From assembly GCF_003605195.1 (NCBI RefSeq), contig NZ_QYOS01000018.1, forward strand, positions 62,001 through 126,000: 64,000 nucleotides of DNA, given 5' to 3'. The translations under genes were made by a program, and so were the position numbers. Below, piece after piece: positions 3,878 to 20,911 of this stretch (within the stretch, counting starts at the first letter, position 1; each line of letters begins with the position of its first letter). The notes beneath the pieces were generated by a model. That model had not been told where the DNA came from and searched no databases. It worked only from the letters and a program-made list of their open reading frames with translations. This DNA comes from Aurantiacibacter odishensis (GTDB taxonomy: Bacteria > Pseudomonadota > Alphaproteobacteria > Sphingomonadales > Sphingomonadaceae).

Positions 3878-4000
3878 ATGACCAACGAATTCCAGAACAA
3901 GCTGATGGCCGGCCTTGCCGCCGCTGCCGTCACTCTCACCCTGCTGGTGAGCAGCTTTGCCAATCCCAACGCCACCAGCGTTGTGGGCCTGCTGGCATGA
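3878..4000 (+). CDS. 40 aa single-TM microprotein, paralogue 2
   Basis: MTNEFQNKLMAGLAAAAVTL begins a 40 aa peptide with one TM helix, the motif LLVSSFANPNA and the end VVGLLA. A near-ideal AAGGAGG stands 6 nt before the start. Its stop overlaps the ATG of the PspC-like gene (ATGA at 3997-4000), so translation is coupled. It is similar to the 42 aa gene just upstream (shared VSSF and GLLA), which suggests local duplication. No characterised family is recognised. Confidence 0.75.
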   Translation: MTNEFQNKLMAGLAAAAVTLTLLVSSFANPNATSVVGLLA

Positions 4001-4218
4001 GCAAGTTCGACAGCAATCACAACGCGGTCCGCCCCGCATCCTCGAAGAACTTCCGGCTCGATCATGCAGACGGCAAGATCGCCGGGGTTTGCGGCGGCAT
4101 CGCCAAGTACTTCGGGATCAACCCGCTGATCGTTCGGCTGGTATTCCTGGTGGGGGCCGTTGCCGGGTTCGGCAGCTTCATCCTCATCTATCTCGCGATC
4201 TGGCTGCTGGCTGATTGA
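3997..4218 (+). CDS. Small PspC-domain membrane protein
   Basis: The 73 aa protein is essentially one PspC domain: FRLDHADGKIAGVCGGIAKY, then GINPLIVRLVFLVGAVAG and a second hydrophobic stretch. PspC domains act in the inner membrane as envelope-stress sensors or PspA partners. This copy lacks the C-terminal helical tail of the longer pspC at 18.1 kb. It is the third gene of a sigma54-type operon with two microproteins, so it probably belongs to the same PspF-controlled response. Confidence 0.88.
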   Translation: MSKFDSNHNAVRPASSKNFRLDHADGKIAGVCGGIAKYFGINPLIVRLVFLVGAVAGFGSFILIYLAIWLLAD

Positions 4219-15818: not shown

Positions 15819-16226
15819 TTAGTCCTGTGCGATGCGTGCCGCGTGTTCCTGCACCAGCGCGATCATGTTGGGCACGCCCTGTGTGCGGTTGGAGGACAAC
15901 TGGTTCTTCAGGTCGAACGGGGCCAGCGCGCCCGCGATATCCATCTTCGCCACTTCTGCGGCGGGCTTGTCCTGCACGGTGGAAATCACCAGTGCAACGA
16001 TGCCCTTCGTGATCGCAGCGTTGCTGTCGGCGAGGAAATGCAGCTTGTCGGCCTCCGTCGTGGGATAGACCCAGACCTGCGCCGAACAGCCGCGCACCAG
16101 CGTGGCGTCGGTTTTCAGGGCAGCGGGCATTTCGTCCAGCTCGCGGCCCAGCTCGATCAGCAGACGATAGCGTTCGTCGCCTTCGAGGAATTCGTATTCT
16201 TCCTGGATGTCTTCAAGTGTGCGCAT
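15819..16226 (-). CDS. sufE: SufE family sulfur acceptor
   Basis: The 135 aa protein has the SufE motif DATLVRGCSAQVWVYP with the sulfur-accepting Cys. SufE takes persulfide from the cysteine desulfurase SufS for Fe-S assembly. Here it is 24 bp downstream of the Psp-linked array rather than in a suf operon, so it may be transcribed with it. Confidence 0.93.
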   Translation of the reverse strand: MRTLEDIQEEYEFLEGDERYRLLIELGRELDEMPAALKTDATLVRGCSAQVWVYPTTEADKLHFLADSNAAITKGIVALVISTVQDKPAAEVAKMDIAGALAPFDLKNQLSSNRTQGVPNMIALVQEHAARIAQD

Positions 16227-16250: not shown

Positions 16251-16490
16251 TCAGAGGTCCACCCCGTTGGCGATGGCTTCCAGCTTGCGGATGCGTTCCT
16301 TCAGGTCGGCAATCTCGATCCGCGCCATGCCTTCGCGGGATCCACCTTCCATTTCGGGCGGCACGCGGTTCATCTCCAGCTCACGGTTCTTGAGGGCGAG
16401 CCAGCCCTGCCAGCCCATCAGGACAGAGGCGGTCAGCATGGCCAGCGCAAGCAGGGCGCTGGCGGCGATCAACAGGTCGATTTGCGTCAT
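16251..16490 (-). CDS. Small TM + coiled-coil protein, last of the Psp array
   Basis: The 79 aa protein has an N-terminal TM (LLIAASALLALAMLTASVLMG) and a helical tail ending DLKERIRKLEAIANGVDL. The end matches only the first half (R-x2-LE-x-I) of the motif shared by its upstream neighbours, so it may be a divergent or shortened copy. The gap to the preceding gene is 28 bp. The function is unknown. Confidence 0.75.
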   Translation of the reverse strand: MTQIDLLIAASALLALAMLTASVLMGWQGWLALKNRELEMNRVPPEMEGGSREGMARIEIADLKERIRKLEAIANGVDL

Positions 16491-16518
16491 TTGGTCCTCC
16501 CTGCGGTGGCAGCAACGA

Positions 16519-16770
16519 TTACTCGTCGCGCAGCTTCTCGATTTCTTCGGCCGTGCGGCGGGCCGGATCGGTGGCGATGCGTTCGAGCACTTTTACCCGT
16601 TCGCGCAACTGCTCCACTTCTTCCTGCAATTCGGCTTCGCGGCGCGTGGAGGCGATGGGGTCGCCCCTGTTATCGCGGACGATGCCTTCCTTCGCATCCT
16701 GCGTCCGCTTCCAGACGGCATAGGCCACGCCGACCAGCACCAGCAGGAAGATCATTGTCCCCAAACTCAC
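16519..16770 (-). CDS. Small TM + coiled-coil protein (Psp array)
   Basis: The 83 aa protein has a TM at residues 5-20 (TMIFLLVLVGVAYAVW), then a charged helix ending RVKVLERIATDPARRTAEEI and LRDE. The tail matches the motif shared by the array. It overlaps the preceding gene by 4 bp. By topology and linkage it resembles PspB, but no direct match to a described family is claimed. Confidence 0.8.
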   Translation of the reverse strand: MSLGTMIFLLVLVGVAYAVWKRTQDAKEGIVRDNRGDPIASTRREAELQEEVEQLRERVKVLERIATDPARRTAEEIEKLRDE

Positions 16771-17066
16771 GATATTCTCTCCTCCCGCGCCGTTCGATCG
16801 GCGCGCAATTCCTCGATCTGGCGGGTCAGGTCCGCGCCGGGATCGGTCACGATACGCTCCAGCACGCGCAAGCGGTCTTCCATGTCCTCGGCCATCTGGC
16901 GCTGGCCGCCGGCCTGCTGAGCCTTGGCCTCCTCGATGCGGGCCTTGATTTCCAGCTTGCGCTCCTCGTGCTGCTGCACGCGCTGGTTGATCACAAAGGC
17001 GAACGGCAGGATCAGCATCAGCAGGCAGAGGATGAAGCCGAAGATCAGCATCAGGTCACCGTCCAT
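16767..17066 (-). CDS. Small TM + coiled-coil protein (Psp array)
   Basis: The 99 aa protein has an N-terminal TM (LMLIFGFILCLLMLILPFAF), a long Glu/Lys/Gln helix, and the end RLRVLERIVTDPGADLTRQI then EELR. The ATG overlaps the previous stop by 1 bp and the next gene by 4 bp, so translation is tightly coupled. A membrane-anchored coiled coil facing the cytoplasm is predicted; its partners are unknown. Confidence 0.82.
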   Translation of the reverse strand: MDGDLMLIFGFILCLLMLILPFAFVINQRVQQHEERKLEIKARIEEAKAQQAGGQRQMAEDMEDRLRVLERIVTDPGADLTRQIEELRADRTAREERIS

Positions 17067-17377
17067 CAGTTGGTTTCCTTCCCGTCGCGGCGCAGGCTCT
17101 CGATCTCGTGGGTCAGGTGATAGCCGCTGTCGGTGACGATGCGCTCCACATTGGCGAGGCGATCCTTCAGCGATCCGAGTTCGGCCTGCAGCGCGGCGTT
17201 TTCCTGGCTCAGTAGTTTCACCCGCTCAACGGCCTGGTCGTTCTTGGGATAGACGGCCTTGCCCCAGCTGTTTTCCAGCGGATAGCCGTGCTTCATTCGC
17301 ATCCAGGTGTTTATCACCCAGCCTGCGGTCATGATGGCGACACCGGCGATCACGGTGGTCTCGGTAATCAGTTCCAT
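17066..17377 (-). CDS. Small TM + coiled-coil protein (Psp array)
   Basis: The 103 aa protein has a TM at about residues 8-24, the juxtamembrane NTWMRMKHGYPLEN, a helical stretch, and the end RLANVERIVTDSGYHLTHEI then ESLR. HGYPLE after the TM is shared with the gene immediately upstream, marking these two as the closest pair in the array. Overlaps at both ends are 1 bp. Confidence 0.82.
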   Translation of the reverse strand: MELITETTVIAGVAIMTAGWVINTWMRMKHGYPLENSWGKAVYPKNDQAVERVKLLSQENAALQAELGSLKDRLANVERIVTDSGYHLTHEIESLRRDGKETN

Positions 17378-17727
17378 CAGACCTTTTCCTTCTTTCCGAG
17401 ATCGAGTTGCACGCCTGTGCCGTTATCATGAGAATGTGGCCTGTCGCGCAGCGCCTCGATCTCTTCCGCGACGGTGTATCCCTTGTCGGTGACAATGCGT
17501 TCCAGCACGATCATGCGGTCCTCCATACGCTCCACGACGTCGCGCAGCTGCTGGTTCTGTTCGCGAAGCTTCTTCGCCTCTTCAGTGTCGGCGCGCTCGG
17601 ATTTTCCGAACAGCTCATCTTCAAGCGGATATCCGTGCCTGGCGCGAATCCAGTTGTTGATCAGCCAGCCAAGCGTCGAGATGACGACAAGCAGAACAAC
17701 GAACATCGGGCCTCCCCAGTCCATCAT
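17377..17727 (-). CDS. Small TM + coiled-coil protein (Psp array)
   Basis: The 116 aa protein has a TM at residues 8-24 (MFVVLLVVISTLGWLIN), NNWIRARHGYPLEDELFGK, a coiled-coil-like helix, RMIVLERIVTDKGYTVAEEI, then EALRD and a His/Asp-containing tail. The start overlaps the previous stop by 4 bp. It is closest to the next gene downstream (HGYPLE) and to the one upstream at the C-terminus (GxGVxLDxxKKE). Confidence 0.82.
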   Translation of the reverse strand: MMDWGGPMFVVLLVVISTLGWLINNWIRARHGYPLEDELFGKSERADTEEAKKLREQNQQLRDVVERMEDRMIVLERIVTDKGYTVAEEIEALRDRPHSHDNGTGVQLDLGKKEKV

Positions 17728-18035
17728 GCGTTCTCCTTTTTCGCGAAGTCCAGCGTTACGCCGCTGCCCGCCTCGTCCACGGCGCGCTGATCGCGCAGGG
17801 CCTCGATCTGCGTGGCCACGTCGTATCCCTTGTCGGTCACGATGCGCTCCAGCACGCGGACCCGGTCCTCCAGTTGCTGCACGCTGCTGGCGTACTGTGC
17901 GGCGCGCTCTGCGGTGTTCTGCGCGGTGGCATCGACCTGGAGCTGCGCGACCTTTTCCTTGTGCTTGGCCCAGATGGCGGTGATCGGAATGCCGCAGCCC
18001 ATGATGATGGCCACGATCGGTATCAATTCACCCAT
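17724..18035 (-). CDS. Small TM + coiled-coil protein, first after pspC
   Basis: The 103 aa protein begins MGELIPIVAIIMGCGIPITA, a PspB-like TM start, followed by a helix with RVRVLERIVTDKGYDVATQI and EALRD, then SGVTLDFAKKENA. AAGGGGGA precedes the ATG. It follows pspC by 39 bp. The C-terminal motif and the position make it the prototype of the array; a PspB-like adaptor role is inferred only. Confidence 0.82.
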   Translation of the reverse strand: MGELIPIVAIIMGCGIPITAIWAKHKEKVAQLQVDATAQNTAERAAQYASSVQQLEDRVRVLERIVTDKGYDVATQIEALRDQRAVDEAGSGVTLDFAKKENA

Positions 18036-18074: not shown

Positions 18075-18452
18075 TCAGCGCAGTCGTTCGATTTCCTGCG
18101 ACAGGCGCGGATTGGCGGAGACGTAGTAGGTTTCCACGTCGGCCAGGCGGCGGTCGATATCCTTCATGCGGGCCCGGATTTCACGCGCGGTGCGCTTGGG
18201 GCTCTGCCGCACGCGCTGCCAGTACTGCGTCTCGTCGGGCGCGGTGTAGAGGTGCGCGGGCTTCTTGCTCAGCAGGAAACCGGCGATGATGTACATGGGG
18301 ATGGTCAACCCGCTGACGGCGAAGGTCAGGAAGATCGCGGCAAGGCGGACCCAGATTGCCTGGATGCCGGTGTAATCTGCAATGCCTGCGCAAACACCCA
18401 GCAGCTTGCCGTTCATGCTATCGCGATAAAGCGTCGTGCGGGGGGTGTTCAT
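18075..18452 (-). CDS. pspC: Phage shock protein C
   Basis: The 125 aa protein has a PspC domain (LYRDSMNGKLLGVCAGIADY, GIQAIWVRLAAIFLTF), a second TM (GLTIPMYIIAGFLLS) and a C-terminal cytoplasmic helix ending RLADVETYYVSANPRLSQEI then ERLR. This tail parallels the C-termini of the small proteins downstream. PspC senses envelope stress with PspB and binds or releases PspA. It overlaps pspB by 4 bp. Confidence 0.93.
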   Translation of the reverse strand: MNTPRTTLYRDSMNGKLLGVCAGIADYTGIQAIWVRLAAIFLTFAVSGLTIPMYIIAGFLLSKKPAHLYTAPDETQYWQRVRQSPKRTAREIRARMKDIDRRLADVETYYVSANPRLSQEIERLR

Positions 18453-18745
18453 GCGTGGTCTCCCTTCTTCTCGGCGAGCAGTTCCTCCAGCTCGCGCAGC
18501 GGTACGTTGTCGACGGCCTTGTCGTGGCGAATACGGGCGGGCTCGAAGTCAGGGTTGTCGGCAGCGACGAGGCGTTCGACCGTGTCCATCCGTTCGTCCA
18601 GCCGCTTGGCCAGCTGGTAGAGTTCCTCCAGCAGCGCCTCGTCATCGGTGGTGATGGTGGCGGCCGTCTTCCACTTCGTTACGTAGTGCAGCACCACCCA
18701 CGGCAGGCCGATGAAAATGGCCGGTATGATGATGAGTTCTTCCAC
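18449..18745 (-). CDS. pspB: Phage shock protein B
   Basis: The 98 aa protein has an N-terminal TM (MEELIIIPAIFIGLPWVVLHY) and a leucine-zipper-like helix (LLEELYQLAKRLDERMDTVE), as in PspB. It is a little longer than enterobacterial PspB because of a C-terminal Glu/Leu extension. It sits between pspA (2 bp gap) and pspC. Confidence 0.9.
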   Translation of the reverse strand: MEELIIIPAIFIGLPWVVLHYVTKWKTAATITTDDEALLEELYQLAKRLDERMDTVERLVAADNPDFEPARIRHDKAVDNVPLRELEELLAEKKGDHA

Positions 18746-18747
18746 GG

Positions 18748-19443
18748 TTATTCCCCTTCGTTCTTCTTTTCAGCGGCGCTGCCCTTGCCGAGTGCGCGCT
18801 TCATTTCCTCCAGTTCGTCGTCGACCTTGTCACCGCCTTCGAGAGCGGCAAATTCGTCGGCGAGCGACATCTTGTCCTGCGCGATGTTGAGCGCATCGGC
18901 GCGGCCTTCGGCGTAGTCGACGCGGCGTTCGAGCTGGTCGAAACGGGCGTGCGCCTCGTCCACCCGGTCGCTGGTCATCAGGCTCCGCAGCTTCACGCGG
19001 TTCTCTGCGCTTTCGAGGCGGGCAGAGATCTGGCTCTGGCGGCTGCGGGCTTCGCGCAGGCGGTTCTGCAGCTTGGCAATGTCCTGCTCGTAGGCGCGCA
19101 GCGCGTCGTCCAGCACGGCGATCTCCTGCTTCAGCTGGTCGCAGGTGTCGGATGCCTTGCGCTTTTCGATCAGCGCGGCGCGGGCCAGGTCTTCGCGGTC
19201 CTTGGACAGGGCCAGCTGTGCCTTTTCCGCCCAGTCGGCCTGCAGCCGTTCCAGCTTCACGGTGTGGCGGTGCATTTCCTTCTGGTCGGCAATCGTACGC
19301 GCCGCGCTTGCGCGAACTTCCACCAGCGTCTCCTCCATTTCGAGGATGATCATGCGGATCATCTTCGAAGGATCGTCGGCCTGATCGAGAAGCTCGTTGA
19401 AATTGGCGGCGATGATATCACGCGTGCGAGAGAAAATGCCCAT
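18748..19443 (-). CDS. pspA: Phage shock protein A
   Basis: From the ATG at 19443, preceded by GGAGGA, 231 aa begin MGIFSRTRDIIAANFNELLD, the amphipathic membrane-binding N-terminus of PspA. The rest is one long coiled coil (DDPSKMIRMIILEMEETLVE). PspA stabilises damaged membranes as an ESCRT-III-like polymer and holds PspF inactive in unstressed cells. The frame stays open upstream to a GTG at 19584 that overlaps the previous stop; the RBS and family length favour 19443. Confidence 0.95.
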   Translation of the reverse strand: MGIFSRTRDIIAANFNELLDQADDPSKMIRMIILEMEETLVEVRASAARTIADQKEMHRHTVKLERLQADWAEKAQLALSKDREDLARAALIEKRKASDTCDQLKQEIAVLDDALRAYEQDIAKLQNRLREARSRQSQISARLESAENRVKLRSLMTSDRVDEAHARFDQLERRVDYAEGRADALNIAQDKMSLADEFAALEGGDKVDDELEEMKRALGKGSAAEKKNEGE

Positions 19444-19580
19444 CAAGGGTCCTCCGATATTAAGCGAGTTGCCGGTTGGCGTCGGGCTTGTGCGGATACG
19501 CTCTATCTCCTGATCGAGACGAGAGCCAATCCGCTTCGTGCCACGCGCCAGCGGCGCCAAAGGGTTGCGGTTGTTGTCGG

Positions 19581-19733
19581 TCACGCCAGTTCCACCAGCG
19601 GGGTGCCGACCAGCATGGTCTCGGACCCGGCAGTCGGCAGCATTCCGGCGAAGATCGTGAACGCGACCATCGCAGCGATGCTGACCAGTGCGGCCTGGCC
19701 CAGTTGGCTGCTGAAGAAGCGGCGATCGAACAT
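19581..19733 (-). CDS. 50 aa single-TM microprotein, first gene of the psp operon
   Basis: A strong AGGAGG precedes MFDRRFFSSQLGQAALVSIA. One TM helix (about residues 13-31) is followed by a short tail ending GTPLVELA. The layout (short polar start, one TM, roughly 15 residue tail) resembles the two microproteins at 3.7-4.0 kb. It is the first coding sequence after the near-consensus sigma54 promoter. It could correspond in position to small Psp peptides such as PspD/PspG, but similarity is not evident. Confidence 0.75.
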   Translation of the reverse strand: MFDRRFFSSQLGQAALVSIAAMVAFTIFAGMLPTAGSETMLVGTPLVELA

Positions 19734-19769: not shown

Positions 19770-19785
19770 TGCAACAGGCGTGCCA
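19770..19785 (-). promoter_or_regulatory. Sigma54 promoter of the psp operon
   Basis: Read on the minus strand, TGGCACGCCTGTTGCA is a near-perfect RpoN promoter (TGGCACG-N4-TTGCA). Transcription would start near 19759, about 25 nt before the 50 aa gene. It lies 18 bp from the inverted repeat at 19804 and divergent from pspF, as in classic psp loci. Confidence 0.9.
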
Positions 19786-19823: not shown

Positions 19824-19885
19824 GGTGAAGAAAACTGGTTTGGTCCCTATTGCCAAGACTTGGGAAAAATAACTATATTTTGGTC

Positions 19886-20911
19886 ATGGAGCGTGACAAT
19901 CAGTTCATCGGCCAGTCCGGCGCCTTTCTCGACGCGGTGGAGCGGGCCAGTCGCGCCGCCCCCATGGCAAGGCCCGTACTCGTAATCGGCGAACGGGGGA
20001 CCGGCAAGGAGCTGATTGCCGAACGCCTACACCGCCTGTCAGACCGGTGGGAGGAGCCGCTGGTCACCATGAATTGCGCCGCTCTTCCCGAAACGCTGAT
20101 CGAAGCCGAACTTTTCGGCCACGAACAGGGCGCCTTCACCGGCGCTACCAGAGCGCGCGAGGGTCGGTTCGAGGAAGCCGACCGAGGCACGTTATTTCTC
20201 GACGAACTGGGTACGCTGTCGATGGGCGCGCAGGAGCGGCTGCTGCGCGCGGTCGAATACGGTGAGGTGACGCGCATCGGTGCGAGCCGCCCGACGCGCG
20301 TCGACGTGCGCATCGTCGCCGCCACCAACGAGGACCTGCCGCGCAGGGCGGAGGAGGGCACCTTTCGCGCCGACCTGCTCGACCGGCTCAGCTTCGAGGT
20401 GATTACCCTGCCGCCGCTGCGTGTGCGCGAAGGCGATATCCCGGTGCTGGCCGACTATTTCGGACGGCGCATGGCGGCGGAACTGGGTTGGGAAGAATGG
20501 CCCGGCTTTGCCGATCACGTCGCGCAGCGGATGGAGGACCATCCCTGGCCAGGCAACGTGCGCGAACTGCGTAACGTCGTCGAGCGCGCGGTCTATCGCT
20601 GGGACAACTGGGACCACCCCATCGGCGAAGTCATTCTCGATCCGTTCGATTCGCCGTGGAAGCCGTTGCCGGTGTCGGGGTCGCAATCGGGCAAGCGGGA
20701 GAGTGAGAGCGTACGACGGGAGGCTCGTCCGGCCAGTCCGCAATACGACAAAGTCGACGATCTTCGGGCAGCGGTGGACGCGCACGAGAAGGCGATTGTG
20801 GAGCATGCGCTGGGCGCCAATCGCTGGAACCAGCGCCAGACGGCAAAGGCGCTCGGCCTCACCTACGACCAGTTGCGCCATGCCATCAAGAAGCACGGCT
20901 TGACGGAATAG
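19886..20911 (+). CDS. pspF: PspF sigma54-dependent activator
   Basis: The 341 aa bacterial enhancer-binding protein lacks an N-terminal sensor domain, as PspF does: GERGTGKE (Walker A), GAFTGATRAREGRFEEADRG with the sigma54-contacting GAFTGA loop, GTLFLDEL (Walker B), arginine-finger region and a Fis-type HTH (WNQRQTAKALGLTYDQLRHA). ATG at 19886 is chosen over a TTG at 19850. PspA normally inhibits it. It is divergent from the psp operon. Confidence 0.94.
   Translation: MERDNQFIGQSGAFLDAVERASRAAPMARPVLVIGERGTGKELIAERLHRLSDRWEEPLVTMNCAALPETLIEAELFGHEQGAFTGATRAREGRFEEADRGTLFLDELGTLSMGAQERLLRAVEYGEVTRIGASRPTRVDVRIVAATNEDLPRRAEEGTFRADLLDRLSFEVITLPPLRVREGDIPVLADYFGRRMAAELGWEEWPGFADHVAQRMEDHPWPGNVRELRNVVERAVYRWDNWDHPIGEVILDPFDSPWKPLPVSGSQSGKRESESVRREARPASPQYDKVDDLRAAVDAHEKAIVEHALGANRWNQRQTAKALGLTYDQLRHAIKKHGLTE

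Follow-up and report, generated by a model that had tools for sequence, protein, structure and literature searches.

The Psp response depends on PspF, which drives sigma54 promoters and is inhibited by PspA, and in Yersinia the C-terminal cytoplasmic domain of PspC binds PspA in the on state, as described in PMC5596341. In E. coli, only residues 40-119 among three PspC fragments bound PspA, with the zipper motif (77-98) being needed; PspB was not seen to bind PspA, its contact with PspC was independent of zippers, and for the end of PspC either a periplasmic location or a dual topology was proposed (all as described in PMC3068692). According to these E. coli results, neither PspA binding nor a cytoplasmic location can be taken for granted in a PspB-like tail. 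Variation of the operon has been mentioned as well, in that Ravi et al. 2024 (PMC11237479) speak of "PspB duplicates" and a "divergent PspB fused to PspC" in psp operons, with AOL22920.1 as an example. Most of what is known about the psp operon comes from E. coli and Yersinia, where it encodes a single PspB and a single PspC, and here we describe extra tails of the same type in the psp operon of most sampled Sphingomonadaceae.

Six small genes behind pspC

The window, a stretch of 64,000 nucleotides from Aurantiacibacter odishensis, contains a psp operon on its minus strand. The gene of the sigma54 activator PspF is divergent (19850..20911, plus strand; Sigma54_activat, 205.8 bits; HTH_8). Upstream of pspA lies the site TGGCACGCCTGTTGC (19771..19785, minus strand), the sole exact match within the window to the -24/-12 consensus of sigma54. 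The three core genes follow on the same strand: pspA (18748..19584; TIGR02977, 276.7 bits, cut-off 242.95; usual MGIFS start at 19443), pspB (18449..18745; TIGR02976, 93.3 bits, cut-off 51.7) and pspC (18075..18452; TIGR02978, 124.6 bits, cut-off 104), the last with an array-like C-terminal tail. A first-pass annotation had reported six small genes of 79-116 aa after pspC, and all six open reading frames (ORFs) lie there on the minus strand: the array proteins O1 (17724..18035, 103 aa), O2 (17377..17727, 116 aa), O3 (17066..17377, 103 aa), O4 (16767..17066, 99 aa) and O5 (16519..16770, 83 aa, GTG start), and O6 (16251..16490, 79 aa), a shortened relative placed between the array and a sufE-like gene (15819..16226, minus strand; PF02657 SufE, 117.5 bits, cut-off 27).

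The spacing of these genes is tight. The gaps amount to -4 nt between pspB and pspC, 39 nt between pspC and O1, -4 nt for O1/O2, -1 nt for O2/O3 and for O3/O4, -4 nt for O4/O5, 28 nt for O5/O6 and 24 nt for O6/sufE; four of the five junctions among O1-O6 are overlaps of 1-4 bp. A consensus scan of the minus strand from pspA to sufE found no terminator. We infer that O1-O6 are probably expressed jointly with pspABC, controlled by PspF and sigma54. The pattern of the sigma54 site recurs in 23/23 same-genus loci and in all ten testable loci of other families, and in 36 of 72 named loci (from the best 80 of 563 confirmed matches, see below) and 5 of 7 loci of other genera, so the site is firm for the genus only. 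No site was found within 450 nt in L045, L055 and L069, and a separate scan found none in 3 of 35 PspA-bearing loci.

Several other features were observed around the psp genes. A hydrophobic leader ORF of 50 aa (19581..19733, minus strand), with a good ribosome site and the ending VELA, lies downstream of the sigma54 site, ahead of pspA, and shares 4 bp with the extended pspA frame. Its motif occurs in 22/23 same-genus loci, 13/72 named loci and 0/10 other-family loci, its pN/pS is 0.21-0.44, and Pfam gave nothing beyond a sub-cut-off OppC_N match. In five loci from other families of the order (L040, L042, L054, L060 and L065), a different small ORF starting with MNIL or MNML occupies the interval from the sigma54 site to pspA. 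PspA itself carries a conserved N-terminal extension of 47 aa (19444-19584, minus strand) with the motif RLDxEIERLRTSPTPT, which is present in 22/23 same-genus loci; the internal MGIFS start retains its own ribosome site, and two forms of PspA are possible. A second protein with a PspC domain and a missing C-terminal tail is encoded at about 3997-4218 on the plus strand, and 24 of 25 same-genus genomes have at least two PspC-model matches, array tails among them.

Sequence features and relatives of the array proteins

The single N-terminal membrane segment proposed earlier for each protein agrees with the hydropathy, as O1-O6 all have a hydrophobic stretch starting at residue 1-8, with a best 19-residue Kyte-Doolittle mean of 1.57-2.98 (the best stretch alone was computed). 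The C-terminal motif, said to occur in five of the six, is indeed carried by O1-O5 in the alignment, with the typical end (L/V)ERIVTDxGYx5IExLR. When O1 was searched against the whole of its own genome at a cut-off of E 10, exactly O1-O5 were returned (E 4.7e-14 to 6.3e-5), so their likeness is not a matter of chance. O6 is without the full motif (LKERIRKLEAIANG) and is absent from these matches; the profile of its family reached an hhalign probability of 92 (E 6.6e-7) against the array profile and of 0.5 against PspB. Where the source gives names, array proteins among the matches listed are called "hypothetical protein".

Judged by their sequences, O1-O6 are under purifying selection. Against five relatives their pN/pS was 0.11-0.75 (on best matches, which in some pairs may be paralogues, and with dS saturated in one), compared with 0.09-0.44 for PspC and 0.06-0.20 for the PspA core and PspB. 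The tail is better conserved than the membrane part, with 88% against 58% identity in the first genes and 60% against 38% in the last genes (400 random pairs each, from which proteins lacking the exact motif spelling dropped out). The structure model of O1 is one long helix (4-89) of low confidence (pLDDT 66.7, pTM 0.28), and the search of solved structures gave a best E of 0.055 (a potassium channel coil) and another best of 0.28. Pfam matches of the array proteins to transposase, ZapB and bZIP families were weak, all under the cut-off, and were rejected.

PspA, PspB and PspC of the window pass the NCBIfam cut-offs, and O1-O6 fall below every curated cut-off. The best PspB scores were 15.6 bits for O4 (Pfam, cut-off 25.6) and 16.6 bits for O1 (TIGR02976, cut-off 51.7), the best PspC score was 20.3 bits (TIGR02978, cut-off 104), and the PspC domain PF04024 had no match at E ≤ 1 in O1-O6. 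The juxtamembrane signature HYxTxW, in which H, Y, T and W are invariant in the PspB alignment, was found in 120/123 PspB proteins and in 0/502 proteins of the array family. As a family, the array proteins are not PspB proper. They resemble PspB (PF06667 / TIGR02976) in having one N-terminal hydrophobic stretch, a helix after it and a place in the psp operon, and the two profiles align with an hhalign probability of 93 (E 2.6e-7); PspB, however, ends in ERILDxExPDWR, unlike the typical array end. Against the C-terminal tail of PspC (TIGR02978), 43 columns of the array profile were aligned with a probability of 94 (E 2.2e-7), whereas a PspC domain match is missing from the array proteins. The similarity of the PspC and PspB tails to the array, noted in the first-pass annotation (for PspB as weak), is thus borne out at profile level.

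By profile comparison, the closest relatives of the array found here belong to an unnamed single-TM family, which occurs outside psp operons in other families. It aligns with the array profile over 82 columns, membrane part included, with an hhalign probability of 99.6 (E 4.6e-24), and its profile, which includes two array proteins of L087, finds O1-O5 at E 1.1e-15 to 1.9e-8. Its consensus is like MxVFEMVVLIVLIS...LEERVRVLERIxTDKxxxLxDEIxxL, and the named members are from Emcibacter, Luteithermobacter, Paremcibacter and Hyphomonas; unlike the array, it has 1-2 copies in most genomes, mostly apart from psp genes. The profile of the orphan relatives reached a probability of 96 (E 4.2e-9) against PspB, 78 (E 1.9e-5) against PspC and 43 (E 2.6e-4) against PspA. 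For comparison, PspB and PspC profiles gave a probability of 11 (E 0.0027) against each other, and against the PspA profile the array reached 0.9 and PspB 1.2.

The specificity of the tail was examined with a tail profile from whose building PspB and PspC were excluded, and which was run against 12,527 ORFs (fetched loci and the window) and an equal number of reversed decoys. Two members of the 28-protein array profile were omitted from it, their exact motif spelling being missing. At E ≤ 10, the tail profile retrieved 100/131 PspC, 81/123 PspB, 106/106 O6 and 18/124 PspA proteins, compared with 1/11,312 other ORFs and 7/12,527 decoys; the 502/502 array-family proteins also retrieved are a circular result, as labels and profile share sequences. 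At E ≤ 0.01, array proteins and 7 PspB alone remained, and the best single E values were 0.00046 for PspB and 0.013 for PspC. The strength of this profile therefore lies in its specificity, since single scores are weak. Outside its own family, the tail retrieves almost only PspB, PspC and O6. An origin by chance or as a generic coiled coil was rejected on the decoy test, and the doubt whether the motif might be an unrelated common coiled coil is settled by the same counts; the other ground for doubt, transcription apart from pspABC, found no support in the terminator scan.

Distribution, linkage and age of the array

In the protein collection, O1 has 5487 homologues at E ≤ 0.001, and among the best 120 of these the source-named ones are mostly from Erythrobacter-group genera. 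The array profile, built from 28 proteins (27 array members and one gene from L045), matches 373 of 397 sampled genomes of Sphingomonadaceae and 88 of 96 genera, with copy numbers being lower bounds because 12 candidates were scored per genome. Within the order, 96/118 genomes match, families other than Sphingomonadaceae mostly with one match and some with 2-3. The orphan-relative profile matches 6/240 genomes of the class, 3 of them from the window's own family, and 33/299 genomes of the phylum, namely 13 of the own family, 3 others of the class and 17 outside the class, which we guess to be Gammaproteobacteria.

Every same-genus locus with pspC (23/23) has PspA, PspB, array genes and O6, with sufE in 22 and divergent pspF in 21; the array genes number 5 in 13 loci, 6 in four, 4 in three and 2 in three. 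Of 563 confirmed matches, the best 80 make up the named loci, which lean to Erythrobacter-like genera because the patterns came from O1/O2-type genes. PspB or PspC is present in 79 of these best 80 of 563, the exception (L123) starting at a contig end; by gene, the same best 80 of 563 have PspC in 79, PspB in 78, PspA in 78, O6 in 79, sufE in 76 and pspF in 72. Copies per locus in this best 80 of 563 are 4 in 27, 5 in 19, 3 in 15 and 6 in 8, more rarely 2 (5 loci), 7 (4) and 8 (2), where array labels depend on the profile thresholds chosen and cover some ORFs that extend too far. A few genomes are represented by two fetched loci (e.g., L063 and L092).

Among the 397 genomes, 371 have both array genes and PspA, 19 neither, 5 PspA only and 2 array genes only (Fisher P 7e-26, hand tally), a test weakened by shared ancestry, incomplete genomes and the dependence among same-genus genomes. 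Co-absence is also partly expected, as the genes share one operon. Elsewhere in the order, such a gene follows pspC in one (L045) of 12 loci, in 13 loci fetched from the other families (L071-L083) nine are unlinked and four follow pspC (L076, L078, L082 and L083), and none of 20 fetched loci of sister proteins outside the order has a Psp gene nearby. The family therefore also lives apart from psp. Neighbours of such copies include a sigma-70-type factor, a dUTPase, AcrB-type and other unrelated genes, and no common neighbour was found among the contexts examined, except that in L074 (4896-5168) and L075 (4905-5177) the array relative, away from psp, comes immediately after the gene of a sigma-70-type factor. 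In L213 and L214, from one other family of the class, two tandem array-family genes stand away from psp, the L213 pair adjoining dUTPase and flavoprotein (DFP) genes.

The paralogues are old. Among 355 array proteins of the window and the best 80 of 563 loci, with over-extended ORFs trimmed to the last 118 residues, 354 are most similar to a protein from a different genome, and matches keep position (first with first in 78/80, last with last in 79/81). As best matches lie in other genomes and by position, the array set predates the divergence of the sampled species and has been kept in order since, with gains and losses. Recent local duplication was rejected, only 1/355 best-matching its own locus. 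The earlier proposal of a repeatedly duplicated PspB/PspC tail module thus holds for the psp linkage and the common tail, and fails where it implies that PspB or PspC was recently duplicated on the spot, given the 354/355 and the nearer unnamed family (E 4.6e-24). A single founder position was sought with the orphan profile in 110 loci: the full profile matched best at the first gene in 53 loci, at a middle gene in 38 and at the last in 19, its N-terminal part alone gave 3, 63 and 44, and the idea of a founder was dropped.

Natural variants are informative. The genome G079 (locus L087; estimated complete) has no PspB over the cut-off in the whole genome, and the best matches to the PspB model are its two array proteins (E 1.3e-4 and 0.0185). 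Its sole PspC domain at E ≤ 1 is in an 88-aa protein (PF04024, 46.6 bits) that stops short of the tail; it is the two adjacent array proteins that match the C-terminal part of the PspC model (model positions 52-121 and 91-121; E 6.6e-4 and 0.17). In this genome, the array proteins seem to provide the tail function. At L087 4622-5407, PspC looks split, a gene for a tail-less PspC domain preceding the two array proteins. The near-complete genomes G088 and G114 have pspABC with no array protein found, G114 retaining O6, so the array can be lost.

Possible roles and comparison with known systems

Homology, operon position, old paralogy and a conserved tail can be read directly from the genes. Our main reading, to which we give a probability of about 0.5, is that O1-O6 are tandem PspB-like single-pass inner-membrane proteins that the pspF/pspABC operon of Sphingomonadaceae has recruited, and whose tails would relay stress to PspA/PspF and anchor PspA. 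Each would combine a variable N-terminal membrane part with a common helical tail of PspB/PspC type. The tails would face the cytoplasm and could pair with each other, with the tail of PspC or PspB, or with PspA; stress might then be sensed through several different membrane parts and passed to a single PspA/PspF switch, and PspA would be tethered to the membrane at many points, not one. Given the PspC/PspB type of these tails, the mechanism requiring least would be a set of extra membrane-fixed modules that bind PspA or the PspC tail. Most likely, the array proteins are extra membrane-anchored PspB/PspC-type tails, and we infer that these act on PspA or PspC. A possible, rather speculative form of this is a multi-input sensor, in which each membrane part responds to its own particular inner-membrane state and one interchangeable tail reports to PspA. 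If so, the two-sensor PspB/PspC switch would have been expanded in Sphingomonadaceae to take as many as about ten inputs.

Other roles have to be weighed against this. The array could do no signalling and serve as a docking platform of many tails tethered to the inner membrane, which hold PspA (a polymer of ESCRT-III type) there with an avidity set by copy number. The better conservation of tails than of membrane parts, the 2 to 8 copies per locus (best 80 of 563) and the added N-terminal segment of PspA in the genus all fit such an anchor, which we consider unlikely all the same, as avidity alone predicts common recent duplicates and only one protein in 355 best-matches its own locus. Still less probable is that the copies are passengers, a general small-membrane-protein family caught in the psp transcript by happenstance with no role related to PspA: copies outside psp operons do adjoin unrelated genes, but the linkage in 79/80 loci (best 80 of 563), the tail specific to PspB/PspC and the joint presence and absence with PspA speak against it.

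The array tails could also act chiefly by engaging the tail of PspC, and so hold the response in its off state. In Yersinia, the cytoplasmic domain of PspB reportedly occupies the PspC tail. In hhalign comparisons the orphan relatives come closest to PspB (E 4.2e-9), and PspB has an altered end in the array-bearing family, as if the role had moved: a [DE]W[RK] end is found in 3/107 there against 16/16 elsewhere, the median length is 100 aa against 75.5, and the median score with the tail profile is 7.5 bits against 14.7. However, the W of PspB is retained in three array-bearing loci (L084, L085 and L089), and the array-less G088 lacks it, so the PspB end change does not track the array, and it may be a single old event in the ancestor of the family. 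A silencing role is doubtful, less probable than the anchor and somewhat more so than the passenger.

If the tails of the main reading act on PspA, the arrays are a natural sensor set with swapped membrane parts, with which one could ask what it is that PspB and PspC sense. In addition, the PspB/PspC tail is now linked to an unnamed protein family that is more widespread in the phylum. Among the titles and abstract openings listed, none describes the array, and an earlier entry in a supplementary table is possible; the main text of PMC11237479 has no word beginning "sphingomon" or "erythrobacter", and that of a second survey, PMC9239133, none beginning "sphingo" or "alphaproteo". The variants of Ravi et al. 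2024 (PMC11237479), as described in that text, are the same kind of operon variation, compared here by description; the passages compared mention neither an array nor a copy number, lineage or tail family, nor O6. We therefore rate the array as a further case of the psp-operon variation already mentioned there as "PspB duplicates" (PMC11237479).
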